Shown here one piece after another: positions 6,104 to 41,816 of a stretch of 64,000 nucleotides of DNA. The notes under the pieces are model-generated. The model had not been told where the DNA came from. It saw only the letters and a program-made list of their open reading frames with translations, and did no database searches. The stretch lies in NCBI RefSeq assembly GCF_900100715.1, contig NZ_FNCA01000005.1, positions 62,001-126,000 on the forward strand, given 5' to 3'. Origin of the DNA: Methanolobus vulcani. Its GTDB lineage: Archaea > Halobacteriota > Methanosarcinia > Methanosarcinales > Methanosarcinaceae. The position numbers and the translations under genes are program-made. Positions within the stretch are counted from its first letter, which is position 1. Each line of letters opens with the position of its first letter.

Positions 6104-6116
6104 TAATTTAGCATAA

Positions 6117-6239: not shown

Positions 6240-6276
6240 AGTTAAAGCTCAAGTTGTTGTAAAAATCAATAACATT

Positions 6277-6338
6277 AGAAAAGAAGAATTGTGGTGGGCC
6301 CGATGAGATTCGAACTCATGACCCCCGCCGTGTAAAGG
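6277..6338. repeat. attL: left 62-bp direct repeat with displaced 3' half of tRNA-Val
   Basis: This stretch is identical over all 62 bases to 34020-34081. Bases 6292-6338 correspond to the 3' half of tRNA-Val (complement strand: anticodon 3' stem, variable region, T arm, acceptor 3' strand and CCA). The 5' half is missing here, so this copy is not a working tRNA gene. It also contains an open reading frame running into the integrase catalytic fragment. Confidence 0.93.
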
Positions 6339-7210
6339 GGTTACTAGATGGCGTTTCCTGGGAACGTACCCCCGGATATCAAGGCCAAGAGCCACCGTAT
6401 GCCACGGAGCCATTGCAAACTGTTTTGTTGAATGATTTATGGGTCCACCATCGAGAATCTTTCAAGGATTGGTTGAACGCTAAAGATGTTTCTAAGACAA
6501 CAAAGAGAGATTACTATAACGCTCTTGAACGATTCTTTTCTACTGAATCTGTTCAGAAACCCCAGGACTTCAGGAAACTCAATCTGAGAGATAAAGAAGA
6601 ACGTGGACTACGTAATTTACTGAACTACTTCGAAGATGAAGATGTAGATGATATCTGTGGATATATCATTCAGAAATGGAGACGTTACATCAAAATTAAG
6701 AAATCCAATGTCTTTGAAGTTTATGTTACTGATGAGGAGATACAGGAGGCTTATGAAAGTTATCCTGAAGATTTGAAACCTATCTATAAACTACTAATGT
6801 ATTCAGGAAATCGTCTCTCCCATATTCACAAGATGCTAAAGACCTTTGATGAACGTAATATTGTTGTCGACGGAGAAGTAGCACATTACCCATCAGCTGC
6901 TTTCTCATCAGGAACTAAGAAGACTTTTCAGATATATTTTCCAGCTTCTTTCATTACTACAGTGAAAAGTATTGATACAGTCTATGGATATGACTATTAC
7001 GCCAAGAGAATCAGGCATAATCGTGTATGTGCAAAGACTATTCGTAAATGGCATCTGAATTTGATGATAAAGGAAGGGGTTACTGAAAGTTTAGCTGATT
7101 TTATACAAGGTAGAGCACCTGCAACGGTGGGAAGTGCTCATTACTTGAATAAAGTTCAGCAATCGAAAGAGGAGTACAGGAGAATTGTGAAAAATTTAGG
7201 GTTTCCATAG
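6278..7210 (+). CDS. SSV-type tyrosine integrase, C-terminal catalytic fragment (split gene)
   Basis: Archaeal tyrosine recombinase catalytic domain that would integrate and excise the element at tRNA-Val. The frame is open from 6263 through the att repeat to the stop at 7210, with no ATG near the front; TTG at 6413 is one possible start in the integrated state. Numbered on the rejoined 403-residue protein, likely catalytic residues are Arg272 (SGNRLSHI), the Lys346-x-x-Arg349 pair (KTIRKWH) and nucleophile Tyr382 (SAHYLN), with the archaeal ADFIQGRAP motif between. The missing N-terminus is at 33742-34081, in the same frame at the repeat. This is the arrangement of SSV1-type integrases, in which attP lies inside the gene. 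Whether the fragment is expressed here is unknown. Confidence 0.9.
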   Translation, partial: EKKNCGGPDEIRTHDPRRVKGLLDGVSWERTPGYQGQEPPYATEPLQTVLLNDLWVHHRESFKDWLNAKDVSKTTKRDYYNALERFFSTESVQKPQDFRKLNLRDKEERGLRNLLNYFEDEDVDDICGYIIQKWRRYIKIKKSNVFEVYVTDEEIQEAYESYPEDLKPIYKLLMYSGNRLSHIHKMLKTFDERNIVVDGEVAHYPSAAFSSGTKKTFQIYFPASFITTVKSIDTVYGYDYYAKRIRHNRVCAKTIRKWHLNLMIKEGVTESLADFIQGRAPATVGSAHYLNKVQQSKEEYRRIVKNLGFP

Positions 7211-7232
7211 TGCCGAATTTATTTTGATATTT

Positions 7233-8852
7233 ATGAATACATTGCAATTTAGTAGACATACATTAAATCATTCAAAATTAATATATATAATAATGAAGTG
7301 TTGGATGTTATTACTCAACTTCATTTATGTACCGGTGATTATGGTAATAATAGGTGATTATCGTTTGAAAGACATGAAACCACATAAAAATGGTTGGTTT
7401 AGAAAGGCAGTTTTAGCCTCAAATTTACCAATAATGCTTTCTACATACAATGTTGAAACCATTCTAAATAAAAGTAGATCATTCACGTGTTATTCACCGA
7501 TAGAGTATGATATTTTGTTTTGTTCATTTGCCATTTGCGGAACAGGAAATAATGACGAAATTACAGATGAACAGTTCAAGTCCATTATGAAAGAATGTTT
7601 AAAAATTTTGGAATCGAAACCTAATTATTTATTTCCTTTAAACCGTTTTGGTATTGAGCAGGGTATTAGACCCTATTGGTTTTCAATTCCAATATATATT
7701 GAATTATTAAAACCATTTAACAATGAGATTAACTCGATTTTTGGAGTTAAAATTGAAGAAATATTTTATTTTATCTCTAATGTAGCCTCTAAAAGCTATA
7801 ATACTAAAGAAGCTTATTTTGATATTTATATATATCCAGGATTAATATCTTTAAAAGAGGATTTGACAATAGAACCATCAGCTATTAATTCTTTGGAAGA
7901 TACATGGAATAAATTGTTTATAGAGTTGGAAAATAATGTCCTAATTCCACTCCGTTCTAGATTTCCTGAAACCATTTATGCATATGTATGCGAAAAACTA
8001 GAATCATCATTTAGTACTTTTGGTACTGAAAAAGGACAGTCTCTTGAATCATTGGTTGAGAGAGAGTTAAAGCAATTTATGCCTCGTTCTGATTTTTATT
8101 GGAAATATTATATTGGAAATAAAAAACATGAAAAGGATTTGCTTATTCTATATAAAAAAATAGGTTTTTGCATTGAATGCAAATCAGTTAAGATGAATAA
8201 AGCATCGTTTGATTGGAATATAGCAAAATTATCCAGTAATATTGAAAAAAATGTTTCTAAAGCGCTTCGCCAAATTAATAGACCTTTAAACTTATTGCTT
8301 GAAGGAGGAATTATTAAACACAAGGAAACAAAATACAAAATAAAATCTAAAGATTACTATCATGGTTTTATTGTAACTGATCAAATTTATAGCCCACTAA
8401 TCCGCGCTTCATTTGATCATGTGAGCAGGTCTAAGTCACATAGTACTAACGAACTATGGCATGGAAAAGACATTTGGGTTGGTTCAATTATAGATTTCAT
8501 ATTTTTACTAAAAGTTACTAAAACTCCTTCTATATTGTTTGATTATCTTTCAAACTTCAGGTCATTCGAACATTTTAAACACAATGATGAGCCAGAATCA
8601 TGGATGCTTTATCGTGGAAATTTATTTAATCCTTCAACTTTTAACATTGAAAGGGAATATAAATTTAATGTTATAGTTAAAGATGAGTTTGAATGGGATA
8701 AATTTAGAAATAATGAAGAGGAGTATTGTAAACCAATATGGCTAAACGGAAAATTTGATTTGATTTACAAATACGATAAAGCGGGACTTTTTTCAAATTC
8801 AAGCAATGTTATTAATCAACTCCGAAGTAATGTTTCAAAACATCCTAAATAA
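7233..8852 (+). CDS. large hypothetical protein with PD-(D/E)XK nuclease-like centre
   Basis: About 539 residues from ATG 7233; a TTG at 7224 and an ATG at 7293 are alternatives, none with a clear ribosome-binding site. I do not recognise the family as a whole. At about residues 285-325 there is a helix with Glu (SLVERELKQF), then Asp in KHEKDLLIL and a strand with ECK (GFCIECKS), which fits the E...D...ExK pattern of restriction-endonuclease-like nucleases such as NERD or Mrr-type domains. Flanking regions have no known motif. It lies just inside the left end of the element and is followed at 68 bases by a second protein with a similar nuclease pattern, so the two may form one defence system. 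Nuclease activity is inference. Confidence 0.6.
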   Translation: MNTLQFSRHTLNHSKLIYIIMKCWMLLLNFIYVPVIMVIIGDYRLKDMKPHKNGWFRKAVLASNLPIMLSTYNVETILNKSRSFTCYSPIEYDILFCSFAICGTGNNDEITDEQFKSIMKECLKILESKPNYLFPLNRFGIEQGIRPYWFSIPIYIELLKPFNNEINSIFGVKIEEIFYFISNVASKSYNTKEAYFDIYIYPGLISLKEDLTIEPSAINSLEDTWNKLFIELENNVLIPLRSRFPETIYAYVCEKLESSFSTFGTEKGQSLESLVERELKQFMPRSDFYWKYYIGNKKHEKDLLILYKKIGFCIECKSVKMNKASFDWNIAKLSSNIEKNVSKALRQINRPLNLLLEGGIIKHKETKYKIKSKDYYHGFIVTDQIYSPLIRASFDHVSRSKSHSTNELWHGKDIWVGSIIDFIFLLKVTKTPSILFDYLSNFRSFEHFKHNDEPESWMLYRGNLFNPSTFNIEREYKFNVIVKDEFEWDKFRNNEEEYCKPIWLNGKFDLIYKYDKAGLFSNSSNVINQLRSNVSKHPK

Positions 8853-8920
8853 AGTACATATGATATAGTTCTATGCCACACCAAAAGAATATATTAATTA
8901 TTGATTGTTTAAATTAATTC

Positions 8921-10054
8921 ATGGAAACAAATAGAAACGAACTGACAGAATATGTATATTCCTTATATGATAGAGGATTAATGAGTGATTATTCAAATAA
9001 TCATTTTTTAATCAAGGCCATGAAAGGGGAATTAACTTACCTTTACTTTCAAAATAATCCATATTTAGGAAATCGAATTATTACAAATATTAGCGGTATG
9101 GATTTTTCAAGTACATTTATATGTAATTTCTCAATCAAAATGCATTATCTTTCATCTATTTTTGTCAATAAAGATAAATTTGAAGATTTTATAAAAAATC
9201 AATTAGCTGCTGGAAAAGAGAATTATTCAGAAGATCAATTCTTCCAAGCAATTTCTGAAATTAACGTTCTTCAATACTTATCCTTGTATTCTGGAAAATT
9301 GAAGGAAGCATTCTATGAACCAGAATTATGTGATGATACAAATCCAGAAGCAAGATTTCATTTTGAAAATGGAATGATTTTTGATATCGAAGTCAAAACA
9401 GCAAATTTTGGTGAAGTACTTGAAGATAAAATCAAAAGAAGTCAGGATAAAGATTTTTTAATAAAACTCAACTTTGTAATGTCAGAAGAATCTAAACAAT
9501 CCTTAAAAGAATACTGTGATGAAAAAAATATTGAACTTTTTTTTCCTCGCGTCTTGAAGTTAAAAGATTTCATCGAAAGTGCTGGAAAAAAATTCGAAGA
9601 AATAACAGACGAAAAACATTTCAATTTATTGTTTATTAATTGGACATATATAGATTACATGGAATGGAGATTGAACGAACCAACATTCCTATTAACAAAT
9701 CCAATTAGTGCTCTACTATATAATGAAAACGTACAAGAAATAATTGGAATAGACAAAAAATCATTGGATAAAATTTCTGCTATTGTACTATACAGGGATA
9801 ATATTGATACCCTTTTATCACAAGATTTTAGATACCATTTTGCTCACCAAACTTTCAAATTAATATTAAATGAAAATCTAAAATCGATTAATAATTTCAG
9901 CCTACTTTGTAAAGCATTGGGCATGAATCCATACGATGCAGAAAGCGAAGCTATATCTTATGCAGAATGTGTAAAGTGTGGAGCCAGCACTGATAATCAA
10001 AATGCAAATAATGCTCTTGAATTTGCTTTAAAGTTATGGCAAAAGAACTCATAA
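8921..10054 (+). CDS. hypothetical protein, possible restriction-endonuclease-like fold
   Basis: 377 residues, start at ATG 8921 without an obvious Shine-Dalgarno sequence. The central segment (about residues 105-165) has a Glu-bearing helix (AISEINVLQYL), an acidic NPEARFHFENG turn and a strand ending IEVKT, with Glu157 and Lys159 as candidate metal-site residues of a PD-(D/E)XK nuclease. The C-terminal third is helical with a single CxxC pair (ECVKCG). It is co-directional with the preceding gene and equally AT-rich. I do not recognise the family; a role in defence rests on its neighbours and on the motif. Confidence 0.55.
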   Translation: METNRNELTEYVYSLYDRGLMSDYSNNHFLIKAMKGELTYLYFQNNPYLGNRIITNISGMDFSSTFICNFSIKMHYLSSIFVNKDKFEDFIKNQLAAGKENYSEDQFFQAISEINVLQYLSLYSGKLKEAFYEPELCDDTNPEARFHFENGMIFDIEVKTANFGEVLEDKIKRSQDKDFLIKLNFVMSEESKQSLKEYCDEKNIELFFPRVLKLKDFIESAGKKFEEITDEKHFNLLFINWTYIDYMEWRLNEPTFLLTNPISALLYNENVQEIIGIDKKSLDKISAIVLYRDNIDTLLSQDFRYHFAHQTFKLILNENLKSINNFSLLCKALGMNPYDAESEAISYAECVKCGASTDNQNANNALEFALKLWQKNS

Positions 10055-10280
10055 AAAACATTAAATGTTGGATAATATCAATGATTGTTCCTTATTAAGA
10101 ATAATATCCAAAAGAAAAGGTACCGCCTCTTTCAGGCGAAGTTTAAACTTATTAAGTTCGAAGAAATAATAACTTCATCAAAACAACCAAAGCATTCAAG
10201 GAGATTCTGATTCATAATTATGATTCTAGTTTACCTGAACCACTTAATATAAATGATGAGAAACAGGTAAAATGATTTTA
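10055..10280. other. intergenic dyads between convergent genes
   Basis: Between convergent genes there is a hairpin with 5-bp arms CGCCT/AGGCG (10124-10138), directly followed by a perfect 12-bp palindrome AAGTTTAAACTT (10139-10150). The hairpin may serve as a terminator. The same pair of motifs recurs near 14.75-14.81 kb. Confidence 0.4.
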
Positions 10281-11060
10281 TTAAACAAAATGACTCCTGA
10301 ACTCTGCTGAAAATGACTCTCCATTTGACAAAATAATTTTTTTAGAATTAGGATCATACACTGCATTTTCAGGAACGATGATTTCTCCACTTGAACTGCT
10401 TTTAAAATATTTGCGAGCCACATCCAAATCCACTAAAATAACTCCTTCAGGCATTTCTATAACTATTTGTGGTTTATGTATGGAAATATTTGTTATAGAT
10501 GATCGCAGTTTAAGAATCTTCAAGTCTTCATTTGGAATTTTTTCCCCAATAAAATCAAATACGCATTTTTTCAGTAGGATGTAGTCATCGTATTGAATTT
10601 CAAATTTTGTACCAATTTCTATTTCCTCAGGCAAATCAATTATTGGTTTAGTACCGAATCTTTTAATTGTATTTTCATATCGAGATTTAGTCATCTCATT
10701 TACAACGCCACCATTGTGACTTTGTTGATTTCTCATAATCCAAATAAGAAAAACAGTAAAATCAGATGGATTTGAAAATTCGTAATTTTCTTCTTTGCCA
10801 GCTCCATTTATTGTAGTGGGGCACTCTGTAGTGAATGTATCTAATGCATTCATTAGGTTTAATGTAAAATTAGAGTAATTGTTAGTGCCTCTTTTTTTTC
10901 TCAAGCCGTCTGCATCTTGAGCTTTGGCTACTTCATCCATTGCAGCTGCAGTACTCTTAAAGTTCTCCGGAGCTTTTAATTCAAGTTCTACCCAAAGATT
11001 ATCCCATTCATTTCTGATTGTATGAGGATGTTTAAAGTGTTTGTTCTTTTTTTGAGACAT
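10281..11060 (-). CDS. hypothetical protein with HEPN-like RxxxxH motif
   Basis: 259 residues starting at ATG 11060; no ribosome-binding site is seen, so the mRNA may be leaderless. The N-terminal half is helical and contains IMRNQQSHNGG, an Arg-x4-His arrangement as in HEPN ribonuclease or nucleotidyl-transfer partner domains. The C-terminal part is beta-rich with no recognised motif. It is the first of three consecutive proteins with an RNxxxH/RxxxxH-type motif. The HEPN assignment is tentative because only the motif and helical context support it; the overall family is not recognised. Confidence 0.5.
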   Translation of the reverse strand: MSQKKNKHFKHPHTIRNEWDNLWVELELKAPENFKSTAAAMDEVAKAQDADGLRKKRGTNNYSNFTLNLMNALDTFTTECPTTINGAGKEENYEFSNPSDFTVFLIWIMRNQQSHNGGVVNEMTKSRYENTIKRFGTKPIIDLPEEIEIGTKFEIQYDDYILLKKCVFDFIGEKIPNEDLKILKLRSSITNISIHKPQIVIEMPEGVILVDLDVARKYFKSSSSGEIIVPENAVYDPNSKKIILSNGESFSAEFRSHFV

Positions 11061-11164
11061 ATAATTCTAAACTCTTTGAATCTAATACCTATTTTGAACC
11101 TTACAAATAATTTGCAAAGTATTTGATAGTATTAACACTACGCAATTATATTTAAATATATATA

Positions 11165-11175
11165 GCATGTCATGC
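11165..11175. promoter_or_regulatory. possible operator, palindrome GCATGTCATGC
   Basis: An 11-bp inverted repeat with one central base lies about 65 bases before the HEPN-like gene. The 12-mer TAGCATGTCATG that includes most of it recurs at 19220-19231 before the Wadjet operon. Confidence 0.35.
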
Positions 11176-11239
11176 AAATACGAAGAAAATACTAATTTGA
11201 TCGTTCATGTTGTTAACTTAATCACTTGGAGACTTCAAT

Positions 11240-11740
11240 TTGGAAAATGAAGACAAGATAAAGAAGCTAAATGATTCATTTCATAGAAATTCGGGCCAAA
11301 TATTAGGAATGGCATTACATATAGAAACGCAATTGGACCACTTTATAGCGAATTACTTCTCAAATCCTCAAAACTACAGAACTCTTATTTTCAAGGATTT
11401 AATTATACTTGACATGTCATTTGGGAGAAAAATAAGGATTTTTATAGAAATTTGTAAGAAAGAACAAATAAATAAAAAATGGCTAAATGAGATTAAAGAG
11501 ACCATTGAGTTTGTACAAAGAATAAGAAACAGAGTGGCACATGATCAAGCAACTTTTTATCAGCAAGAAGAGAAAATTGTACTCCAAAAGAAAAAAAGTG
11601 TTACAAATAAGGAAGATGAATTAGAAATTACAGATACTTTAGTTGATGAAGTCGATAAAAAGCGATTATTTTGTTTACAAGAAATCAGCAAAGTTGCCAT
11701 TAAGATATCTGAACTTAAAAAAGAGGATTCTGATTGGTAA
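11240..11740 (+). CDS. small HEPN-like protein
   Basis: 166 residues starting at TTG 11240, supported by TTGGAG at 11226-11231 eight bases before. The protein is almost wholly helical, with VQRIRNRVAHDQA at about residues 93-105, a good Arg-x4-His HEPN signature of the kind found in toxin or abortive-infection RNases and in DUF4145-like proteins. No MNT-type nucleotidyltransferase partner is adjacent, so it is not an obvious HEPN-MNT toxin-antitoxin pair. Its neighbours on both sides also have HEPN-like motifs but are on the opposite strand. RNase activity is inferred from the motif only. Confidence 0.6.
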   Translation: MENEDKIKKLNDSFHRNSGQILGMALHIETQLDHFIANYFSNPQNYRTLIFKDLIILDMSFGRKIRIFIEICKKEQINKKWLNEIKETIEFVQRIRNRVAHDQATFYQQEEKIVLQKKKSVTNKEDELEITDTLVDEVDKKRLFCLQEISKVAIKISELKKEDSDW

Positions 11741-11833
11741 TTAAGAGGTTTATAGTAATTTTAAAATTTCATGATGAATTACACAAACAAAAAGTGAATT
11801 GTTGGATATAAATAAGAAGTTCTAAATAAATTG

Positions 11834-12568
11834 TCAAGTTGAATTCCTTTTTTCAATATAGTCTAATTGTTTTCGGGGTAATTTATTGTATACTTTTTCA
11901 TGGACACTAGAAGACATCGTATATTCTACAATTCGATTAACTAAGTGGAATAAATCTTGAGCCATTTCCAAATCGTCTCTTAAATCCATTGTTCCAGGAT
12001 GAACAGATTCGTTTCCTATAACTCTTACACAATCAAGCGATTGTTGAATATCTTTGGGAATTCCGCTGTCGACTAGTGTTTTGATGTCGTTATTTATGTT
12101 TTTTCCAGATCCTCCAATGTATGGCATTAGTTTCTGAATAGATAATCTTAACAAAGCACAAGCTGAACGAGGAGAGATTTCTAAAACCCTTCTTGCCTCT
12201 TCAAATTCTGCTTTTACGTCTTCAGGCATTTGAGATGTTGGTAAAGGAGCGGAAGAAGAAATAGGATATACCATTTTCATCTTAATCCATAATGAGTGTT
12301 CTAAACATCTTTGACAAACACATATTTTAGTATCTTGAATATTGAACTTCCCTTTTCTCTCGAGAAGAGTAAATATGAAAGATGATTTGCATAATTCATC
12401 AGCATATATAAAAGACCACTTCTGATGTGCAAAGACACCACAGTGTGGGCAATTAAAAGCATCTTTTTTATACTCAGGTACACAATTATTCATCAAGAAT
12501 CTCCTGCTTATATTTCTGATAAATCTATAAGAATGGGCATTATTTCCTTCCCTTAGATCCGTTTCCAT
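11834..12568 (-). CDS. DUF4145-type protein with zinc ribbon
   Basis: 244 residues. The N-terminal part has a four-Cys zinc site (CPHC at about residues 40-43 and CVCQRC at about 83-88). The C-terminal part matches DUF4145: a helix with SPRSACALLRLSIQK, then RVIGNESVHPG and a long C-terminal helix. DUF4145 is regarded as HEPN-related and is often seen in defence islands and fused to restriction subunits. Here it is free-standing. The start at ATG 12568 lacks a clear ribosome-binding site. Family call is good; molecular function is unknown. Confidence 0.75.
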   Translation of the reverse strand: METDLREGNNAHSYRFIRNISRRFLMNNCVPEYKKDAFNCPHCGVFAHQKWSFIYADELCKSSFIFTLLERKGKFNIQDTKICVCQRCLEHSLWIKMKMVYPISSSAPLPTSQMPEDVKAEFEEARRVLEISPRSACALLRLSIQKLMPYIGGSGKNINNDIKTLVDSGIPKDIQQSLDCVRVIGNESVHPGTMDLRDDLEMAQDLFHLVNRIVEYTMSSSVHEKVYNKLPRKQLDYIEKRNST

Positions 12569-12778
12569 TTGCTGAGTTCATTTTTGTCAACTAAGATATC
12601 ACTTCAATATTAAATTATGGTGATATTCTAAGTCTTATATCCCTATAAGAACATGCTATTTACCTAAAGAGACACTACTTACAAAGTTATAAACAGTACA
12701 ATTCATTTTGATAAATATAATGTCCAATAAAATAGAATATTTCATACTTTTGTGACATGTATGTCTATCTTTATCACA

Positions 12779-14371
12779 TTACTGTATATTATAGTTGGGA
12801 ATAAACATATACTCTGCGTAAATATCAATCACATCCCTTACTAAATCGGACCGATAAGTCAAAAAATCTAAAAACATTTCACTGCTTTTCATTTCTTCTA
12901 TGCGGAAATCTCCATCATTATATTCTAATCTATGTATGTCAATTGTATCTGGCTTTATTTCAGTTAGACTGGTTTCGTAACTTAAACCAAGAATCTTCAT
13001 AATTTTTGAATCCAATAATCCGATAGTACCGAACTGTTTTTGCATGAAAATATTAAATGCATCACCTTCAAAGAAAATATCGACTATTTGTTTCAGTTGT
13101 ACATTATTCTTAGTCCACGAAATAAATCCATTATAGACTTGAATAGAATTGACGTCTAAGTTCTCGACAATTATTTCATATGCAGGTATAGAGTCTTTAT
13201 TTTGAGAACAAGCAAATATTGATTCTAATATGCTATCAGGATTAAACACATTAATTGATACTGTGAATTTGTTTATTTTTGTTAACCTGCTAAATATCGT
13301 AGAAATATGTTTTTTCCAAACCTCATTAAAGCATAGGCAATTAAGTGAATCTTTTTTAATTTCAAGTATTTTGGCTTTGTTTTTTGAATTAGCATAATTA
13401 TAATAACACAATTGATTGCTGCCATTAAAACCCAAGATCTCATAGAGTAAAGTTGAATCATTTAGTCTTTGATCATTTTCAAAAAAGCCATTTCTAATAA
13501 TACCTAATACTTCATAGTTCTGATTCAACTTGTACATTAGTTTCTCTGGATAGCTATTATCCAGTGAATCATATTCGATTGCATCTTTTCCATAAATAAA
13601 TTCACCTAAAACTAAAGATTCCAGCTCATATAGGTAAGATTCCTCATCATCAAATTCCACTGATTGATTGAGTATTTCATTTATTTCATCATGATTAACA
13701 CAATTATTTTTTTTTTCAGTACATATTCTCTTTAAACAGTTTGTAAAATAATCTGTACTGTATTTTTGGATTATGAGATGTAATTCAAAAGGATCTATGT
13801 CGTTTTTTGGATTAAGAACTAATATTGCAAAATCACTAATTCCATATGAGGGGAGAAGGGATTTGATTTTTTTAATAGTTGGAGACACTAAATATCCATT
13901 TTGATAATAAAAACATGTGTGATTCCGTGAAAATTCTCTAATCCATTCTTCAGGTATTATTTCGATTGATTCTATTTTCGTAGGGAAATAATTAGAATCA
14001 ACTTCTAGTTTGTACCCTTCAATATTGTATATTGATTCTCTCACATATTCAGAAAAAGGAACCAATAGTTCGGCCCACTCTGTAGAAACAACAATTATAC
14101 GCAATTCACTTTGCTTGATTTTTAAATTTTGCCTTAAAAGCCCTGCGTATTTCAAAATTTCATTTAAAGTTTCTCTTGATGAATGATTTGATCGTTTAAT
14201 TTCTATGATTACATAATTATTCTCAGAATCAGTAGCCAGAATGTCGATGAAACCATTTGATCCATACTTATTTTTTAGATAATATTCTTCTTCAGCTAAT
14301 GTTAAATCACTATCTATGAATGATAAATTTTTAGCTAAATTTTCTCGTATAATATCTTCATTTCGTTTCAT
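12779..14371 (-). CDS. NucS/DUF91-like PD-(D/E)XK nuclease-domain protein
   Basis: 530 residues from ATG 14371, with GAGGGA just before it. Residues about 1-120 form a restriction-endonuclease-like domain similar to the C-terminal domain of NucS/EndoMS and DUF91 proteins: a Glu-rich helix, GFIDILATD with the metal-site Asp, then VIIEIKRS with the ExK pair, and a conserved YAGLLRQN helix. The remaining 400 residues are not recognised. Such proteins are frequent in archaeal defence islands. It is encoded upstream of the DUF4145 gene on the same strand with a 210-base gap, so co-expression is possible. Activity and target are unknown. Confidence 0.7.
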   Translation of the reverse strand: MKRNEDIIRENLAKNLSFIDSDLTLAEEEYYLKNKYGSNGFIDILATDSENNYVIIEIKRSNHSSRETLNEILKYAGLLRQNLKIKQSELRIIVVSTEWAELLVPFSEYVRESIYNIEGYKLEVDSNYFPTKIESIEIIPEEWIREFSRNHTCFYYQNGYLVSPTIKKIKSLLPSYGISDFAILVLNPKNDIDPFELHLIIQKYSTDYFTNCLKRICTEKKNNCVNHDEINEILNQSVEFDDEESYLYELESLVLGEFIYGKDAIEYDSLDNSYPEKLMYKLNQNYEVLGIIRNGFFENDQRLNDSTLLYEILGFNGSNQLCYYNYANSKNKAKILEIKKDSLNCLCFNEVWKKHISTIFSRLTKINKFTVSINVFNPDSILESIFACSQNKDSIPAYEIIVENLDVNSIQVYNGFISWTKNNVQLKQIVDIFFEGDAFNIFMQKQFGTIGLLDSKIMKILGLSYETSLTEIKPDTIDIHRLEYNDGDFRIEEMKSSEMFLDFLTYRSDLVRDVIDIYAEYMFIPNYNIQ

Positions 14372-18916: not shown

Positions 18917-18925
18917 TTTGCTCAC

Positions 18926-20808: not shown

Positions 20809-20810
20809 AC

Positions 20811-21425
20811 ATGACAGAAAATGATACTTATCTCCCCTATGCTGCAGTATTAATTAAGTTACTTAAAGGTAATCTGTTTGATAGTGATGTTCAGACATGG
20901 AACAATCTCATTCAATACAAACAAGCAATACAGAATTATTTTTCAAGTATTGGACTTGAGTTATTCGTTCATGAGAATGATGGCTATGCCTTTTTAAGAC
21001 AAAAAGATTTTGAGGAGCAAACAGACCAGTCTCTGCCTAGCCTAGTAAGTAAAAAGCAACTAACTTTCCATGTCACAACGCTTTGTGTGCTTCTTGTAGA
21101 AAGGTTGTACGAAGATCAAAATACAAAAGGTAATGATTCTCCTTATCTTACTATAGATAGAAAGTCCATCTACAATTTAATGGAGCCTTTTATGGCGGAT
21201 ACTTCCAACGAGGCTAGAACCAAAAAGAAAATTGATTCATTTATCGATAAAGTAAAAGATTATGGATTTCTAAGACCACTAAAGTCAGATGAGAACACTT
21301 TTGAGGTCAGGAGAATACTTTGTGCCAAGATTCCAAATGAAAAGCTCCATGAAATCAAGGAAAAGTTAGTTGAATATTCTACGAAAGAAGAGGAGATAGA
21401 AGATGGCACAGAACTCATTGATTGA
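20811..21425 (+). CDS. jetB: Wadjet JetB (DUF4194, MukE/MksE-like)
   Basis: 204 residues from ATG 20811; AGGA at 20800-20803 is well placed for this start, and it lies two bases after the jetA stop. A TTG at 20796 would add five residues. Mainly helical with tandem winged-helix features, as in the KITE subunits of SMC complexes, and of typical DUF4194 length. It should bind the JetA kleisin and the DNA in the motor complex. The 3' end overlaps jetC by 23 bases, which suggests translational coupling. Confidence 0.88.
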   Translation: MTENDTYLPYAAVLIKLLKGNLFDSDVQTWNNLIQYKQAIQNYFSSIGLELFVHENDGYAFLRQKDFEEQTDQSLPSLVSKKQLTFHVTTLCVLLVERLYEDQNTKGNDSPYLTIDRKSIYNLMEPFMADTSNEARTKKKIDSFIDKVKDYGFLRPLKSDENTFEVRRILCAKIPNEKLHEIKEKLVEYSTKEEEIEDGTELID

Positions 21426-24762: not shown

Positions 24763-25946
24763 TCATCCAACCTGATAAAATCAGATCAATAGCAACTAGC
24801 TGGTACAAGGATATACTGTCCTCTTCAGTATATGGAATACCGCAATTCCCAAGAAATGTCCGTTTCAGGAAAGTTAAATCAAATGAAACACAGGAGAATT
24901 TCTTCAAAATCAACACAGAAACTGATAAGCTAATAAATGGGTCAAAGGAAAAAAAAGGTTATGGGTATACAGTGGAACTTGCTCAGCGGAATGACCGAAG
25001 AATTGGTCCACAAAAATTTCCCGAAAAGATATACTTTGAAACACTTGACGATTATCTTAAATTTTTCAGGAAAGAAGCGCAATATGCTGAATTTATAGAA
25101 ATCACACAAAGACTAAAACGAGAACTGCCTCATCTACTGCCTTGGGTAGAATCAAATCCAATGAAGGTAATCGATAATCTTGGCAAATGGGATGATATCA
25201 TCAAAGTCTGCTATTTTTTTCTTGAAAATCCTATGCCTAATATTTTTATCCGCGAAATTCCTCTCGACATATCTACTAAATTCATCGAAGAGAACAAGGT
25301 CATTATCAAGTACTTACTAGACATTCTTATTGAAGATTATGTCAACAAGGATGAAACAGATTTTAACAAACATTTCAATCTAAAGAATAATGAGCCTCTA
25401 ATAAGGCTTAAAATACTCGACCCTAAAATCGCACACGAATTTTTTAGTGGAGTTGATGATCTTAGCATCCCTCAAAGTCAGTTCAATCAACTAAATCTTC
25501 CATGCAAAAGAGCGTTTATTCTTGAAAATAAAACCAACTATACTAACATATTCAACTTCTTGACACTTCCTTCACTAGAAGGATCAATTGCTATATTTGG
25601 TAAAGGATTTGGTGTTGGCTTGCTAAAAGATGCGACATGGTTGTCAAATAAGCAAATCATTTATTGGGGTGATATTGATCCTCATGGTCTTCAAATATTG
25701 TCTCAGATAAGGGGATACTTCCCTCAAACACAATCATGTATGATGGATCTTAATACATTTACAGATTTTAGTTCTCTGTCTGTGATGGGTGCATGTACGG
25801 ATGTAACTGAGATTGAACATTTAACACCTGATGAACATGAACTGTTCGATTATCTTAATAGCATGGAAGAATGCAATCGTTTAGAACAAGAAAAGATTCC
25901 TCATGAATATGCTTTGAAGATGATCTATGAAATTGTAAACATATAA
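24759..25946 (+). CDS. jetD: Wadjet JetD (DUF3322-DUF2220, TOPRIM/Topo VI-A-like nuclease)
   Basis: 395 residues, overlapping the jetC stop by four bases (ATGA). The N-terminal DUF3322 region is followed by a DUF2220 TOPRIM domain resembling the Spo11/Topo VI A subunit: AFILENK has the metal-site Glu and YWGDIDPHGL the DxD pair. JetD is the nuclease that cleaves circular plasmid DNA held by JetABC. All key acidic residues are present, so the system should be active as far as sequence shows. No gene follows for 1.35 kb, so this ends the operon. Confidence 0.92.
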   Translation: MIIQPDKIRSIATSWYKDILSSSVYGIPQFPRNVRFRKVKSNETQENFFKINTETDKLINGSKEKKGYGYTVELAQRNDRRIGPQKFPEKIYFETLDDYLKFFRKEAQYAEFIEITQRLKRELPHLLPWVESNPMKVIDNLGKWDDIIKVCYFFLENPMPNIFIREIPLDISTKFIEENKVIIKYLLDILIEDYVNKDETDFNKHFNLKNNEPLIRLKILDPKIAHEFFSGVDDLSIPQSQFNQLNLPCKRAFILENKTNYTNIFNFLTLPSLEGSIAIFGKGFGVGLLKDATWLSNKQIIYWGDIDPHGLQILSQIRGYFPQTQSCMMDLNTFTDFSSLSVMGACTDVTEIEHLTPDEHELFDYLNSMEECNRLEQEKIPHEYALKMIYEIVNI

Positions 25947-27993: not shown

Positions 27994-28389
27994 ATGAAAA
28001 GAGTATTTGAAAATATCGATGATTTTGGAACGATAGTAAAAATAAGAGCATTCGACCTGCAAGATTACAATATTGATGAGATATGTTTAAAGACAAAAAA
28101 AGGCCATCTTTTTGAATCGCTCTTCTATTATGGAAAATGGATGGATAGAGGGTATAGATCAAAGAAAGATGCACAAATCCACCTATATGAAATGCTGACA
28201 GTATACACCAGAGATATTTACCAGGTTGAGAGGATGTTTTCAAAATCTGCACTTTGCAGTGAAAAATGGAAAAAATGTTCTGCATATAGGGAAGAAATCA
28301 GGAATGCCGCACTTGAACGAACAAATCAAAAACTGAACGAACCAAGCTGGATTAACTGCAATTTTACTGAAGAGATTGTTTGGAGTTGA
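27994..28389 (+). CDS. stand-alone helix-bundle domain related to the neighbouring PrimPol protein
   Basis: 131 residues. Its middle part (about residues 37-110) aligns with residues about 237-303 of the large replication protein encoded just downstream: FESLFYYG against FKSLFYDG, then the acidic helix, then FSKSALCSEKWKK against FKQSALYREKWDR and EIRNAA against TIRNAI. That segment corresponds to the helix-bundle domain of NrS-1-like primase-polymerases, which contacts template and initiating nucleotide. A free copy could modulate or help priming. It lies 234 bases upstream of the large gene on the same strand. Homology is clear by eye; function is inference. Confidence 0.65.
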   Translation: MKRVFENIDDFGTIVKIRAFDLQDYNIDEICLKTKKGHLFESLFYYGKWMDRGYRSKKDAQIHLYEMLTVYTRDIYQVERMFSKSALCSEKWKKCSAYREEIRNAALERTNQKLNEPSWINCNFTEEIVWS

Positions 28390-28623
28390 ATCATTCTAGT
28401 AATAGAACTAGTTTGAAGTTGTTTCGCCTTGTAGTACTAGAGATGTTAAATATAAAATTCAATATCAGCACTTCTGAAGAGGTGCAGTGTTATTAGAATA
28501 TGTTTTGAAATTAATATCTACATCCGCTTTTCAAGTTGTAGAATATTGAAATCTAATTATTAAATATAAGACTCAGTGCCATCAATAAAAAGAATCAATG
28601 CACTGGGAATGGAGTTTATTAGT

Positions 28624-31182
28624 ATGTCTGAAGTAATTGAAAATAAAGAAATTTCCGTATCGTCTGAAGAACAAAGTATTTCTGCTCCAAAGGTGGAAAT
28701 CGAAAATATTCCACAGGAATTAAAAGAACCACATCAATGGGTATTGTGGAAATCTGAGCAAAGTGAAAGTGGTAAACCTAAAAAGGTTCCATATTCTACC
28801 AGAGGCCACAAAGCAAGCCCTACAAATTCCAAAACATGGGATAGCTTTGATTCGGTAGTTTCAGTTTACGAAGAAAACCCAGGCAAATATGCTGGCATAG
28901 GCTTTGTCTTCTCAAAAAACGATTCTTTCGTTGGAATCGATTGGGATAATGTTAGGGATGCTTCATCCGACAAGTGGGACCAATCAATACTACTTGAAAT
29001 TGGAAGATTAAACACATATTCGGAGATATCGCCCAGTGGTACAGGTGCACATGCAATTTTAATAGGTGAGTTGGACCCAAATGGCATGCATCGATCTGGA
29101 AATCGTGAAATCTATGAGGATGGTAGGTTCTTCACTTTTACTGGCAACGTTATTGAGGGAATGCCTCTTGAAATTAACGAAGACAGCAGGAGTCTTGAAT
29201 TCATTCAGGAAAAGGTCGGCTATAAAACCACTCAGAGTTCTTCAGAGGAATTCTGGAATAACAACACAAACGAAATCGATGAAATTATATCAAGATGCGA
29301 AAGTTCAGCAAGTAAAGCCAAATTTAAATCTTTATTCTATGATGGAAATCTGAAAGACTATAATGGTGACCATTCCCGTGCTGACATAGCACTTTGCGAT
29401 ATTTTGGCATACTACACTCAAGATGAAAAGTTAATAGACCACATCTTCAAGCAATCTGCATTATATAGGGAAAAATGGGACAGAGCTGACTACTCACATC
29501 GTACTATCAGAAATGCTATTGATTTCATTGATTCAAAGAGGAACTGGGAAGATTATAAGGCTCCACATGGATACAACATCAATGAAAGAGGTCTTTTCAA
29601 AAACAACTTTGAATCAGGGAATGGGCAGCGTATCTGTCGTACGCCTATAGTCATATCAGGAATAGGTGAAGATTTAGATAATGATGAATGTTGGTATCAG
29701 GTTACTTTTAAGGATCCTACTGGGAAAACTAAACAGGAATATATGAAACAGGATAAGCTGATGAAAAAATCAGGCGTTATGGAAATTTCTAATAGAGGAG
29801 TCTTAATTACTGAGAAAAAAGCGAATGATCTTTGTGAATACTTTGTGGATTCAATTGCAGAAATTGCTCCTAAACTTGAAAAGAAACCTTTTGTGCGAAA
29901 TAATGGATGGAAACGTGATAATGAAGCATTTGCTATTGGTGAAAGGTTGCACACAAAAGATGAGGTAACTAAAGCAGTGCAAATAAATGCTAAAAAGACT
30001 GCTGGCCTAAATCCAAAAGGTAGCCTTGAAAATTGGATAGATGCTGTTAAAGGAGTAATCATTTTCCCTGACATCCGCTTGAAATGCTATACTGCTCTTT
30101 CAAGTCTCCTGTTAAGGGCAGTGAACGCTGATTCTTTCTTCCTGGACCACTCTGGCAACACAACTGCTGGAAAAAGCTTTGGGGTGCAGGTTGCTATAAG
30201 CATGCTTGGTGATCCAAAAGCTTTGAAACTGGCAGGAAACTCTACTGCAACCTACCTAGAAGGGCGTGCAACGATGTTCAATGATTTGCCCCTGTTTATC
30301 GATGAAACAAGTCTTGTAGATGCAGATCAGCTTTCAAGAGTTATTTACCAGATTACAAATGAAACTGGTAAAGGAAGAGGAAACACAGATGGTAGCATTC
30401 AAGATTTAAATGAATGGAAAACAGTAGGGATGTCTACAGGTGAAAAATCAATCGTAGATCATAATGGTTTTAGTGGACAAGAAGTGAGAGTTATCAAAAT
30501 TCATGATGATTTACCATACATGAAAGAACAAGTGGACTACACAAAAAAGGTTCTCAAAAACAATTATGGTCATGTGATTGATTATTTTATTAGGAACATG
30601 TTTGAAAACATGGAGAATCTAGAACCAAAATATGAAGGATATATCAGCACTTTTACCACAGGAAAATCAAAAACTGCTGACCGATTGGCAAATTCATTTG
30701 CTGTAATAGCGGTTGCTGGTGAGTTGCTTGAAGAGGTATTCAAAGAGATTGGTATTGAACCAGTGGATAGTACAGAATTGGTTCAGCAGTATTTCAATAA
30801 ATGTGTATTAGACAAACCAATTGAACTGTACGGCATTAAAGCACTGAGGATAGCAAATGACTGGATAGAATCTAACAGGTTCAACTTCATTGAGGATAAC
30901 GATCAGGAATCATTTAGAGGCGATAAAATATACGGATGGGTGGACAGTAAAGGATACTTTGATATTATTCCATCTGAACTTGAAAAGGAATTGGTTCAAC
31001 ATGGAATCAAATATACCGACGTACGTGATGATTGGATAAAATGGAATGTTATGATTGTCAGCAAAGGCAGGAACGATTATAGGGCAAACCATACTGACGC
31101 TGCTGGTAAATCAAGCCGTCCTTCTGTCTGTAGAATCGATATTGAAAAAATACATCATCTGTTGGAGAACGGTTTGGAATAA
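28624..31182 (+). CDS. replication protein: primase-polymerase (NrS-1-like) fused to DUF927 helicase-like ATPase
   Basis: About 852 residues from ATG 28624, chosen because GGAG (28611-28614) lies nine bases before it; GTG 28576 and ATG 28609 are upstream alternatives. Residues about 30-205 form an archaeo-eukaryotic primase-like domain with catalytic DxD in GIDWDN (Asp106, Asp108), the GTGAHAI motif and DGRFFTFTG. A helix-bundle domain follows (about 220-305). The DUF927 ATPase has Walker A GNTTAGKS at about 511-518 and Walker B PLFIDETS at about 557-564. The C-terminal part may be a winged helix. This architecture initiates and drives replication of plasmids and viruses, and it is the best candidate for the element's replication protein. 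Confidence 0.85.
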   Translation: MSEVIENKEISVSSEEQSISAPKVEIENIPQELKEPHQWVLWKSEQSESGKPKKVPYSTRGHKASPTNSKTWDSFDSVVSVYEENPGKYAGIGFVFSKNDSFVGIDWDNVRDASSDKWDQSILLEIGRLNTYSEISPSGTGAHAILIGELDPNGMHRSGNREIYEDGRFFTFTGNVIEGMPLEINEDSRSLEFIQEKVGYKTTQSSSEEFWNNNTNEIDEIISRCESSASKAKFKSLFYDGNLKDYNGDHSRADIALCDILAYYTQDEKLIDHIFKQSALYREKWDRADYSHRTIRNAIDFIDSKRNWEDYKAPHGYNINERGLFKNNFESGNGQRICRTPIVISGIGEDLDNDECWYQVTFKDPTGKTKQEYMKQDKLMKKSGVMEISNRGVLITEKKANDLCEYFVDSIAEIAPKLEKKPFVRNNGWKRDNEAFAIGERLHTKDEVTKAVQINAKKTAGLNPKGSLENWIDAVKGVIIFPDIRLKCYTALSSLLLRAVNADSFFLDHSGNTTAGKSFGVQVAISMLGDPKALKLAGNSTATYLEGRATMFNDLPLFIDETSLVDADQLSRVIYQITNETGKGRGNTDGSIQDLNEWKTVGMSTGEKSIVDHNGFSGQEVRVIKIHDDLPYMKEQVDYTKKVLKNNYGHVIDYFIRNMFENMENLEPKYEGYISTFTTGKSKTADRLANSFAVIAVAGELLEEVFKEIGIEPVDSTELVQQYFNKCVLDKPIELYGIKALRIANDWIESNRFNFIEDNDQESFRGDKIYGWVDSKGYFDIIPSELEKELVQHGIKYTDVRDDWIKWNVMIVSKGRNDYRANHTDAAGKSSRPSVCRIDIEKIHHLLENGLE

Positions 31183-31188
31183 ATGTCA

Positions 31189-31218
31189 CACTGTCACTAT
31201 AGTCACAGTGGTTTTTTT
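31189..31218 (+). terminator. terminator after the replication gene
   Basis: CACTGT/ACAGTG arms enclose ACTATAGT with one mismatch on each side (31189-31210), followed by a run of seven or more T. Shape and position just after the stop codon support a hairpin-plus-U-tract terminator. Part of the motif (ACTGTGACTAT) recurs 80 bases downstream. Confidence 0.7.
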
Positions 31219-31386
31219 TATTTAGTCGTTTATTATTTCATAAATTTGATACTACTAACCAAAATAATTACATAAACACTAACACTGTGACTATTGAGAC
31301 AACTGTGACAAAAAACAAGTTAATTAGAATTCATTTCATCAAACACGGGAGTAACGATGTATCCATCATCCATGTTTCCAAAGACT

Positions 31387-32079
31387 TTACACTTCTCGGG
31401 GTGTGCCCAGTAATAAATAAGCAACATACGCACAGAAAACAGCATCCAGAATATCTTCATATTGCTTCAATTTTGATTTAGTCAGCTTTTCTACATCCAC
31501 AGAAAGAAGATCAACTGGCAAATCTAAAGCGGGCTTTGCTTTGCTAAGCATCTGGAGATGCTTTTTATATTTTTTAAATCCTTCTATTCTCCTTTCACGT
31601 TCCCTTTTCTTATAATCGAGAATTTTATCTAGATTAAACAGGACAACAGTAGCAGGATGAGGATATACTTCAAAGAACTTTCTTGTATCTTCATAATGCT
31701 GGATACAAAAATCATGTTTGAAGTTGTGGTTTTCCAGACATTTACTTAGGTCGTTACCACGAACAGACCCATACATATTTAAAATATTTGTAATACTTGC
31801 AGGACGTGCGTTTGCATCATATTTCCAGAAGGTACTATTCAATTCTTTTTCAGCATTGCGCATTCCTTCTTCGTTTGGGACAACAAGTGGAATGTCTATT
31901 GCTATTAATGCATTATCTTCATGCACATTATTGTTGATGAATTCCAAGACATCTCCATTAGAAAAAACAGTACTTTTATTATAAAGTGTAGCTTTTTCGG
32001 AATCGCCTTTTATTATTGCGATACCTGAACCTTCTTTGGTGTTGTAGGACCATGCCAAGTCCACGCCTATAAAGTACAT
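31387..32079 (-). CDS. DUF429 protein (predicted RNase H-fold nuclease)
   Basis: 230 residues beginning GVDLAWSY, the first strand of an RNase H-like fold with its acidic residue. AIDIPL carries the second acidic position, and NARPASITN, FEVYPHPA and DILDAVFCAYVAYL complete the usual DUF429 pattern. Members are thought to be RNase H-fold nucleases, but no biochemical role is settled. It is transcribed towards the replication gene. Whether it belongs to the element's core or its cargo is unclear. Confidence 0.82.
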   Translation of the reverse strand: MYFIGVDLAWSYNTKEGSGIAIIKGDSEKATLYNKSTVFSNGDVLEFINNNVHEDNALIAIDIPLVVPNEEGMRNAEKELNSTFWKYDANARPASITNILNMYGSVRGNDLSKCLENHNFKHDFCIQHYEDTRKFFEVYPHPATVVLFNLDKILDYKKRERERRIEGFKKYKKHLQMLSKAKPALDLPVDLLSVDVEKLTKSKLKQYEDILDAVFCAYVAYLLLGTPREV

Positions 32080-32401
32080 ACAATTAAGATTAGATACATC
32101 TCATATAGTTTATACGTTCAGTATAATTAATTAGAGACTGCTAGTAGTATTTATCAAGTTACCAACTAATAAGAAAACGCTAAGTATGTACCCTGTATAA
32201 TTGCCAGGGTGCCTCTTTATATTAAAAATCATTTTTAGTTTTATAGGGGGTAATAGCACAAAAATCAGTTTCAAGGTAACTATAGGAAGAAAATATGCCA
32301 TTCAAGCACATATAACTACCATACCTGCACCACCATAATGCGTTCTTGCAATATTTTGGCAAATAGTTATTCTATCTCTTTCATTAGATTACTACAAACA
32401 T
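32080..32401. other. intergenic region, nothing recognised
   Basis: AT-rich sequence upstream of the DUF429 gene. A short GACTGCTAGTAGT stretch near 32133-32145 resembles part of the candidate origin region near 26690. No gene or RNA is recognised. Confidence 0.3.
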
Positions 32402-32563
32402 CTACAACAGCTTGCTTGTATTCTTAAAATCATTGAAGGTTTTGGCATATTCTGAGGAAACCACATTATATTCCCCTTTGTCATCGATATCAATGAAAAG
32501 ATGTGAGTCATCAAAGCCTGCAAATATACGGTATGTTTCACCATTCCATATGGGATGGTCCAC
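32402..32563 (-). CDS. small hypothetical ORF, possibly a truncated or frameshifted gene
   Basis: A 53-codon minus-strand frame from a possible GTG start at 32563 reads GETYRIFAGFDDSHLFIDIDDKG, split here as GETYRIFAGFDDSH and LFIDIDDKG, and ends KNTSKLL. Its composition looks like real protein, more so than the opposite-strand frame. The upstream sequence continues protein-like in another frame (ICDKEYTSGILTES), so a frameshift is possible. No ribosome-binding site is clear and no family is recognised. Confidence 0.35.
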   Translation of the reverse strand: MDHPIWNGETYRIFAGFDDSHLFIDIDDKGEYNVVSSEYAKTFNDFKNTSKLL

Positions 32564-32708
32564 CCTATTGATTCAGTTAATATTCCAGACGTATACTCTT
32601 TGTCACAGATAGTTATCTCTTAGATAGAGAAGAAGAAATAGTATACAAACAATGTTTTCAAAGATTAGATAGCATCCAAATGATACAAAAATTCAATTAA
32701 GCATAAGT

Positions 32709-33119
32709 TTATTTTTTTGTATCATTCTTAGTATTGCCAATTACACCTTTAACATCAACCATTGTTTGGATATAATCAATATAATTTTTAAATGCAAGAT
32801 TCTGAACCTCAAATAAGTCTGCCAATAATTTCCTATTTTCAGCAGATTCAAGTTGAAGTTTTGATATTTGGTCATCTTTTATTTCGAATTGTTTATCCTT
32901 GGCAGCCAATTGCTGATCTTTTATAAGTATCTGATCCGTTAAAATTGAAATTTGAGATTTGAGGACCGATACAAATTCACTGTCTTCCTCACCACGTAAG
33001 TACTTTTCAAGTAACATTGTAATTACAGCACTAGGTGATTCTTTTCTTATATTTAGTTCCTCACGTTGCCACCGTGGAACTCTTGCATTAAGTTGAACGG
33101 TATCATTCCTATTATCCAT
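32709..33119 (-). CDS. ribbon-helix-helix regulator with coiled coil
   Basis: 136 residues. The N-terminal 45 residues (VQLNARVPRWQREELN, then PSAVITMLLEKYL) have the strand-helix-helix pattern of MetJ/Arc/CopG-type DNA-binding proteins. The remainder is a long heptad-like coiled coil with Gln- and Lys-rich segments (ILIKDQQLAAKDKQFEIK), suggesting oligomers. Such proteins control copy number or partition on archaeal plasmids and viruses. It is divergent from the small gene at 33235, with a repeat-rich spacer that could be its operator. Confidence 0.7.
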   Translation of the reverse strand: MDNRNDTVQLNARVPRWQREELNIRKESPSAVITMLLEKYLRGEEDSEFVSVLKSQISILTDQILIKDQQLAAKDKQFEIKDDQISKLQLESAENRKLLADLFEVQNLAFKNYIDYIQTMVDVKGVIGNTKNDTKK

Positions 33120-33234
33120 GTATTTTAAAATAGCTTTTAAGTATATTAAAATATCTATTTGATAGTAATTTATATCATAATAATATCATTTAGTATCTAT
33201 AGCTATTAAATAGTAGAAATCACAACTTTAATGC
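33120..33234. promoter_or_regulatory. divergent promoter/operator with short repeats
   Basis: The 115-base spacer contains two TTAAAATA copies (near 33124 and 33147), a TTTATATCATAA TATA-like stretch near 33169, and the dyad-like CTATAGCTATTAAATAG near 33197. It is a plausible autoregulatory operator for the ribbon-helix-helix protein. Confidence 0.4.
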
Positions 33235-33549
33235 ATGAGTAGCAATAAGAATAACGAAGTAGAAATGATCTTTGATATTCAGAAAGATCTTGCTGAGAAG
33301 TTGGAAAATAGTAGATTTGGTAAAGACTATACATTAGGAAAGCTGATTGAAACACATGTTGAATATAAGAATGAATCAAATGAAGTTTTGTATTCTATCT
33401 GCACAGGTTTGGGTCTAGAACTTGAAGAAATAAATAAAAAACTGCCTAGTGTACAAGGGAACGAAAAAGAGAAATTATACGATAGACTTGAAGAACTAGA
33501 CATCAAATGCAATATTATAATAAAAGTTATAAGAGATAGACAGCAGTAG
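33235..33549 (+). CDS. small helical hypothetical protein
   Basis: 104 residues starting at ATG 33235 with hardly any leader after the AT-rich promoter, so probably leaderless. The sequence is charged and helical with no Cys cluster or membrane segment. The N-terminal half (VEMIFDIQKDLAEKLEN and TLGKLIETHVEYK) could form a small DNA-binding fold, but I do not recognise the family. Its place between a regulator and the integrase suggests a role in element control. Confidence 0.5.
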   Translation: MSSNKNNEVEMIFDIQKDLAEKLENSRFGKDYTLGKLIETHVEYKNESNEVLYSICTGLGLELEEINKKLPSVQGNEKEKLYDRLEELDIKCNIIIKVIRDRQQ

Positions 33550-33741
33550 TCTTTTATGTTCCTTTCAATTAGTTACCTATTTTTCTTTATTGTAGAAAAC
33601 TGCTGAACCACTTATACTCACTGAAAGACTATTACTTTTCTCTATATATCTTTGAAATCACTAGATTTAACATAAAGATCATGGATAATCAAAAGTTATA
33701 TAACTATTATACAACCATTCTGAATAAGAAGGTAATAGTTG

Positions 33742-34092
33742 ATGAAATCCATAGGCAAATCCAAAATAACAAAGCTTAGTCCTAAAAAGAATATTACATA
33801 TCCATTAATCAGGTTGCCACCGTCATGCACAGATTTAATAGGAGAAACGGCCCATATTTTTGAAACCAAGTACAATGGCAAGACTTTATTCATCTTATCC
33901 CTGGAAGAAGACTTTGATGGTGAACTTCAAGTTATACAACCCAGAAGTAGTTCAGACGTCGAATCAAGACTTGAATCCTTAGAAAAACAGCTTTCACTCT
34001 TACAAGAAACAATATCAGCAGAAAAGAAGAATTGTGGTGGGCCCGATGAGATTCGAACTCATGACCCCCGCCGTGTAAAGGCGATGTCATAA
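33742..34092 (+). CDS. SSV-type integrase, N-terminal fragment (split gene)
   Basis: From ATG 33742 (AAGGT upstream; TTG 33739 is the alternative) the frame encodes a beta-rich segment (KITKLSPKKNITYPLIRLPP), a coiled coil (VESRLESLEKQLSLLQETI) and then, within the att repeat, GGPDEIRTHDPRRVK, which is simply tRNA-Val read in the antisense direction. The frame stops at 34092 inside the tRNA. Joined at the repeat to 6339-7210 it makes exactly 1212 bases, 404 codons including the stop. SSV1-type integrases also have an N-terminal coiled-coil part used for oligomerisation. In the integrated state this part is cut off from the catalytic domain. Confidence 0.88.
   Translation: MKSIGKSKITKLSPKKNITYPLIRLPPSCTDLIGETAHIFETKYNGKTLFILSLEEDFDGELQVIQPRSSSDVESRLESLEKQLSLLQETISAEKKNCGGPDEIRTHDPRRVKAMS
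34020..34081. repeat. attR: right 62-bp direct repeat inside intact tRNA-Val
   Basis: This copy is identical to 6277-6338. It spans 15 bases downstream of the tRNA 3' end plus the 3' half of tRNA-Val up to the anticodon stem. Sequence diverges at 34082, where the chromosomal 5' half of the tRNA continues. Confidence 0.93.
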
Positions 34093-34111
34093 CCGGCTAG
34101 ACCACGGGCCC
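34035..34111 (-). tRNA. tRNA-Val (anticodon UAC)
   Basis: The complement gives a full cloverleaf: acceptor GGGCCCG/CGGGCCC, a D arm, anticodon stem TCGCC/GGCGG around loop TTTACAC (anticodon TAC), variable GGGTC, T arm ATGAG-TTCGAAT-CTCAT, discriminator A and encoded CCA (34035-34037). It reads GUA and other valine codons. The element integrated into its 3' half without disrupting the gene. Confidence 0.96.
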
Positions 34112-41766: not shown

Positions 41767-41816
41767 TCACAAAATCCATTTTTATTTTTAAAAATAACAC
41801 ATATAGAAGATTTACT

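Follow-up and report, generated by a model that had tools for sequence, protein, structure and literature searches.

A split-integrase element with Gabija and Wadjet genes at tRNA-Val of Methanolobus vulcani and its relatives in the Methanosarcinaceae

The window analyzed here is a stretch of 64,000 nucleotides from Methanolobus vulcani (contig NZ_FNCA01000005.1, positions 62,001 to 126,000). It contains an integrative element that lies in a tRNA-Val gene and carries the two parts of its integrase gene, int(N) and int(C), at its opposite ends (Table 1; all coordinates are those of the window). The element is bounded by a direct repeat, the two copies of which (6277-6338 and 34020-34081) are identical in 62/62 positions and offset by 27,743 bp, with the adjoining bases on both sides already mismatching. 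Other repeats of similar length pairing with the tRNA-Val region were looked for, and none was found. ARAGORN places a single intact tRNA-Val(UAC) on the minus strand at 34035-34111; hence, the repeat is read as nucleotides 31 to 77 of the tRNA plus 15 bp past it. The attachment site (att) is, in other words, the 3′ part of a tRNA gene (47 nt) with the anticodon loop complete. The 15 bp beyond the tRNA are where the coding part of int(N) ends, which is a small correction to an earlier sequence-only reading of this DNA. That reading had given the repeat coordinates and offset exactly, and the insertion into tRNA-Val that it described agrees with the ARAGORN call. It had also named a methanogen as the host, and the host indeed belongs to the same genus as the named Methanolobus genomes. 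The GC content of the element is 33.2%, compared with 37.5% and 39.9% in the flanks.

The int(N) frame (33742-34092) and the frame of the C part (open from 6263 to 7210) run in identical phase within the repeat, and both are free of stops. Joining 33742-34081 to 6339-7210 gives 1212 nt, i.e. 403 codons and a stop, exactly as the sequence-only reading had calculated. The att thereby lies inside the integrase gene. The joined protein matches PF16795 (Phage_integr_3) over residues 241-398 with E=1.9e-39, int(C) as it stands in the genome matches it with E=4.9e-40, and a solved SSV1-type integrase catalytic domain is matched at E 2e-12. Residues R272, K346, R349, R372, and Y382 align to the catalytic R211, K278, R281, R304, and Y314 of SSV1, the loop lysine sitting in the motif SGTKKTF. 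An unsplit homologue with a 48-bp att inside (436 aa, L048:1990-3297) is present in a Methanolobus relative, G061. It aligns straight across the junction, with residues 1-400 of the joined protein in a single alignment at 54% identity (E 2e-156). The SSV1-type assignment with attP inside the gene, which had been proposed from the letters, is borne out by these matches.

Frames antisense to tRNA genes are often open, and the joined frame might for this reason be a coincidence in an otherwise classical (type II) element. However, int(N) residues 1-95, which lie outside the tRNA, are conserved across many genomes, and no other integrase of the family was found in this genome. Because homologues occur in 72 of the 112 Methanosarcinaceae genomes (match at 1e-5) and the unsplit one runs across the junction, the joined frame did not arise by chance from antisense tRNA sequence. 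The unsplit gene rules out the classical element, and the probability left to a coincidence is negligible.

The integrase is best classified, judging by its domain, residues, and att position, as a suicidal SSV-type (type I) enzyme near the pT26-2 group; PF16795 has been assigned to the suicidal pTN3, pT26-2, and SSV families (PMC8371274). In a tree of 27 sequences, the 22 from Methanosarcinaceae form one clade (100/99). Its nearest outsiders are the pT26-2 group and the integrase of Archaeoglobus profundus pleomorphic provirus 1 (ApPV1), which comes out as the sister (95/98), although the deep branches are long and both the exact sister and the branch order are hence unsure. The best plasmid match of the joined protein is the pT26-2 integrase (33% identity, residues 99-400, 152 bits compared with 74 bits for SSV1, in agreement with the tree), and the closest viral record is ApPV1 (37% identity, residues 152-397). 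Like the present element, the pT26-2 group combines a suicidal PF16795 integrase with attP in the gene and a tRNA target, and it occupies a neighboring branch. With respect to the integrase, the Methanosarcinaceae family differs from it by forming a separate clade, by the targets found here, tRNA-Val genes (UAC or CAC), and by a longer N part; moreover, it is found in methanogens and its cargo is rich in defense genes. SSV1 (Fuselloviridae, Sulfolobales) shares the type I split integrase, the att in a tRNA gene, and the conserved catalytic residues. Identity to it is, however, 29% across 60% of the length, the N parts have no recognizable similarity, and the context of SSV1 is viral. ApPV1 carries pleolipovirus structural genes, whereas none is recognized here, and its integrase as deposited lacks an N part.

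These features suggest the following course of events. The circular form of the element would have carried a whole integrase gene of ~403 codons with attP, a copy of the tRNA-Val 3′ part, in its N-terminal third. The integrase would then have recombined attP with tRNA-Val; by analogy with SSV1 (PMC8371274), the anticodon loop is the most likely place of the crossover. The recombination would have restored the tRNA gene and separated int(N), at the tRNA, from int(C), at the opposite end of the element, disabling the integrase. With the gene split, the element would be locked in and could leave only with the help of an integrase supplied in trans. An intact integrase of the PF16795 split family was searched for elsewhere in this genome, and none was found; hence, excision would depend on a related integrase that comes from outside. 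Alternatively, Int(N) and Int(C) could both be made and reassemble, so that the element excises unaided. Both frames are open, as is common at both ends in relatives, and one Int(C) from Thermococcales is reported to be expressed and to complement in trans (PMC8371274). According to the same work, however, truncated integrases are inactive in vitro and the SSV2 halves show no interaction in solution, and the fragments of several relatives carry stops or deletions, which makes unaided excision quite improbable. With its cargo of Gabija, type I Wadjet, and a primase-helicase for replication of the circle, the element is very probably one that split its own integrase at tRNA-Val and is now a locked-in mobile defense island, belonging to a Methanosarcinaceae family whose members stack at this gene.

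Table 1. Features of the element and its borders in the window
Feature	Coordinates	Strand	Evidence or remark
Second, older int(N)-tail/att scar	6116-6153	+	31/38 identical to int(N)/attR end
Probable remnant of earlier int(N) tail next to attL	6233-6276	+	Reads ...KLKLL*KSITLEKKN
attL, left repeat copy	6277-6338		3′ 47 nt of tRNA-Val + 15 bp; 62 bp
int(C), integrase catalytic C-terminal fragment	6339-7210	+	PF16795, catalytic residues; frame open from 6263
542-aa protein beside int(C)	7224-8852	+	53% homologue in 5.7-kb G032 element
530-aa protein, candidate further defense gene	12779-14371	-	N-terminal NucS/Cas4-like nuclease domain
gajB of Gabija (UvrD-like helicase)	15228-17156	-	PADLOC GajB 2e-271
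gajA of Gabija (OLD-like ATPase + TOPRIM nuclease)	17141-18925	-	PADLOC GajA 2e-238
Wadjet type I operon jetABCD	19369-25946	+	PADLOC, Pfam
jetA	19369-20808	+	PADLOC JetA1 1e-145
jetB	20796-21425	+	PADLOC JetB1 5e-57
jetC	21403-24762	+	PADLOC JetC1 E 0
jetD	24759-25946	+	PADLOC JetD1 2.5e-139
Small ORF, probably replication-module fragment	27994-28389	+	Related to primase helix-bundle domain
868-aa primase-helicase, probable replication protein	28576-31182	+	NrS-1-like primase-polymerase + DUF927/Cch-type helicase
int(N), integrase N-terminal fragment	33742-34092	+	Antisense through tRNA-Val to stop; N homologues at the relative loci examined overlap tRNA-Val
attR, right repeat copy	34020-34081		62 bp; within int(N), overlaps tRNA-Val
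tRNA-Val(UAC), attB gene	34035-34111	-	ARAGORN; intact, its 3′ part supplied by the element

The Wadjet type I set of the element is complete, with all four PADLOC matches near full length and overlapping frames, and the adjacent gajA and gajB likewise form a complete Gabija with matches near full length. Compared with known Gabija and type I Wadjet systems, the sets are the same; here, they lie on an archaeal split-integrase element, and their defense role is predicted from sequence. The 530-aa protein matches NucS_C at 1.8e-5, PDC-S11/Cas4 weakly, and NF003270 at 1.1e-7, the last far under the cut-off. The label Shedu was rejected for it (SduA_C, 16.8 bits against a cut-off of 27). Other elements of the family carry cargo of a similar nature: type I restriction-modification and Septu PtuA in G059, GajA/OLD-like and type I restriction-modification genes in G061, type I genes in G020, G024, and G056, type I sets and GmrSD in G036, and MkoA in G021. 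G089 has type III-like genes, the repeat pair there not having been checked. Within the family, JetC is found in 5 of 112 genomes and the primase-helicase in 31 of 112; hence, the cargo seen here is rarer than the replication module.

The 868-aa protein resembles both the Cch helicases of SaPI and SCCmec and the NrS-1 primase-polymerase. It matches SCCmec Cch1 at 3e-27, although with 95 of 700 bits, far below the family cut-off, as well as structures of NrS-1-type primases (2e-28) and a pathogenicity-island helicase (8tch, 4e-24). Compared with these systems, both parts are here fused in one archaeal protein. The match to both suggests a self-replicating island, and past replication of the excised circle is probable, as the protein joins a primase-polymerase to a SaPI/SCC-type helicase. 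Three open reading frames (ORFs) near int(C), at 7224-8852, 8921-10054, and 10281-11060, have no match in Pfam, PADLOC, PHROGs, or NCBIfam; the first of these may be a backbone gene of the element family because of its homologue on the G032 element.

A provirus or a virus satellite, with capsid genes too divergent to be recognized or borrowed and with the defense genes as passengers against competing viruses, would account for part of this gene content. Archaeal viruses often carry SSV-type integrases, the known integrase that the tree places nearest comes from a pleomorphic provirus of Archaeoglobus, the helicase resembles that of the SaPI satellites, and several ORFs are unassigned. Against this, the PHROGs scan of the element gave matches for primase/helicase and one weak abortive-infection match and nothing else. 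No capsid, portal, terminase, or spike family was found among the element proteins in Pfam, PHROGs, and NCBIfam, a statement that concerns sequence families alone, and a search of the viral contig collection gave no close integrase relative. A plain provirus was rejected, no structural genes being recognized by sequence family, and a provirus or satellite in the wider sense is unlikely. Because of the NrS-1/SaPI/SCC-like replication gene and the lack of capsid genes among the matches, the element resembles an integrative island more than a provirus. A second stretch of low GC content (29%) lies outside the element at 40936-43561; it encodes two unassigned proteins and a LolA/MucB-like protein.

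Within the order, 59 of 186 genomes have a match at 1e-8, and all 59 are Methanosarcinaceae. Relatives are herein cited by genome label (e.g. G039, Methanolobus bombayensis; G024, Methanococcoides; G094, Methanosarcina sp. DH2). The same arrangement, with int(C) at one end of an element and int(N) at the other, recurs in thirteen other Methanosarcinaceae genomes, where the elements lie between exact repeats of 45-151 bp offset by 3.4-36.6 kb. G066, in which no repeat pairs the fragments, and G056, in which the contig stops within the C fragment, are not counted among them. int(N) overlaps tRNA-Val in all 13, with the anticodon UAC in ten and CAC in three. The best reading is that the family repeatedly uses tRNA-Val as a defense hotspot.

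Several further loci were observed in these genomes. The tRNA-Val of G064 has an orphan int(N) (L096, 9183-9527), which shares the 62-bp att of the window and has no matching int(C) nearby. A second split element in G061 (L109, G061:C1:2148000-2167900) has a more distant integrase C part (27%) and an N part (59%) that ends at tRNA-Gly(CCC) with a 22-bp repeat, which suggests that this element switched its target to tRNA-Gly(CCC). In addition, several Methanolobus genomes have units of ~140 bp next to tRNA-Val and scattered at other loci; each unit opens with 14-24 nt from the 3′ end of tRNA-Val and includes a GGTGCTAAGC...GCTCAGCACC hairpin. They are found in G046 (L085, between 10320 and 10452), G058 (as a tandem pair), G063, G055, G040, and G059, in some genomes with read-through in frame with the integrase, and are absent from the genome of the window.

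The tRNA-Val locus without the element is represented by G046, where orthologues of the left flank (up to 96% protein identity) and of the right flank (94-98%, conserved genes) surround the tRNA-Val. Relatives have no nucleotide match to the left flank of the window, and the synteny with G046 is at the protein level only. For each of G043, G051, G049, and G040, the stretch read contains a single att copy at tRNA-Val. The sequence-only reading had proposed such a comparison and would have yielded to an element-free relative with the repeat at both places; the single att copies and the G046 synteny speak for insertion instead. It would likewise have yielded if the joined protein had not aligned over the junction, and the G061 homologue does align there. 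The element could nevertheless be a fixed relic, long immobile and now an ordinary defense island of the species, as the genome lacks an intact integrase of the family. This is rather unlikely in view of the identity of attL and attR over 62 bp, the lack of stops in int(N) and int(C), and the absence of the element from the close relative G046; taken together, these three points indicate an insertion that is recent relative to species divergence.

The reading as a locked-in island of a stacking family gains from the left ends of the elements. If an element B enters a tRNA-Val occupied by A, the resulting order would be N_A-att-C_B ... N_B-att(tRNA), so that the old int(N) stands before the new int(C) and a full, chimeric integrase can be rebuilt. 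Two left att copies in series are present in G059 and G060. In 7 of 16 left ends checked (G061, G020, G086, G032, G036, G021, and G058), int(N)-like sequence stands directly before the left att with a match of 1e-5 or better; the match is weaker in others, including the window. Here, tblastn aligns the N tail with the scar at 6233-6276 across stops, and the last bases of this scar are a near-match to the N tail 3′ of tRNA-Val in G046. The scar at 6116-6153 has a local score of 46, compared with 33 for the best of 300 shuffles. The intact G061 gene has an N part that is 92% identical to the tRNA-Val int(N) of G039 and 40% identical to the int(N) at G061's own tRNA-Val. It appears to be a chimera of an old N half and a new C half rebuilt by stacking. 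The C part in the window has its closest counterpart in G060 (93%) and shares 81% identity with the C part of G058, whereas for the N part the closest counterpart is that of G059 (79%) and identity to the N part of G058 is only 51%. Judged by these identities, the N and C parts of the integrase have different histories, and the same kind of discordance is described for Thermococcales integrases (PMC8371274). A rebuilt chimeric integrase may be active, which would amount to a rescue by stacking.

Several points weigh against this picture. The left end of the earlier element (C_A) was not found within ~80 kb to the left of the intact G061 gene, so that the stacking case in this genome rests on the N-part identity. 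The scar next to attL is weak by itself (26/63 nt, E 0.002, equaled by 1.4% of random pairs). Many ORFs of the element have no assigned function, among them ORFs within 7224-14371 and 31387-33549, which leaves room for structural genes of an unfamiliar virus. The cargo scan of the relatives covered part of their proteins, and mobility and enzyme activity are predicted from the assembled sequence.

The split-integrase mechanism itself is not new, as the suicidal pT26-2 integrase group is listed for "Thermococcales, Archaeoglobales (Methanosarcinales)" (PMC8371274, Table 1); the sequence-only reading, which knew of no well-described case in Methanosarcinales, does not hold in this respect. The Methanosarcinaceae family that stacks defense cargoes at tRNA-Val is, by contrast, little described. 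The defense cargo, the family-wide distribution, and the serial stacking go beyond that reading, and the element is more interesting for its cargo and stacking than for the gene split.

Type I Wadjet cuts circular DNA below ~100 kb irrespective of sequence (PMC10586767), and the circle of the element would measure 27.7 kb; hence, its Wadjet poses a testable self-targeting puzzle, the hypothesis being that it would attack the element's own circle too. A broader idea, possible although held tentatively, is that stacking reverses the suicide: arrays would encode chimeric integrases, allow re-excision, and drive the shuffling of N and C parts, while Wadjet would favor a locked-in, host-serving island by acting against rival circles and the element's own. 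The findings extend the suicidal-integrase mechanism, characterized in hyperthermophiles, to a large family in Methanosarcinaceae methanogens and link suicidal integrases to the spread of defense systems at one tRNA gene. How an integrase can persist and change despite destroying its gene is a question raised for this enzyme class (PMC8371274), and the stacked arrays with an apparently chimeric intact gene offer a concrete, testable answer to it.

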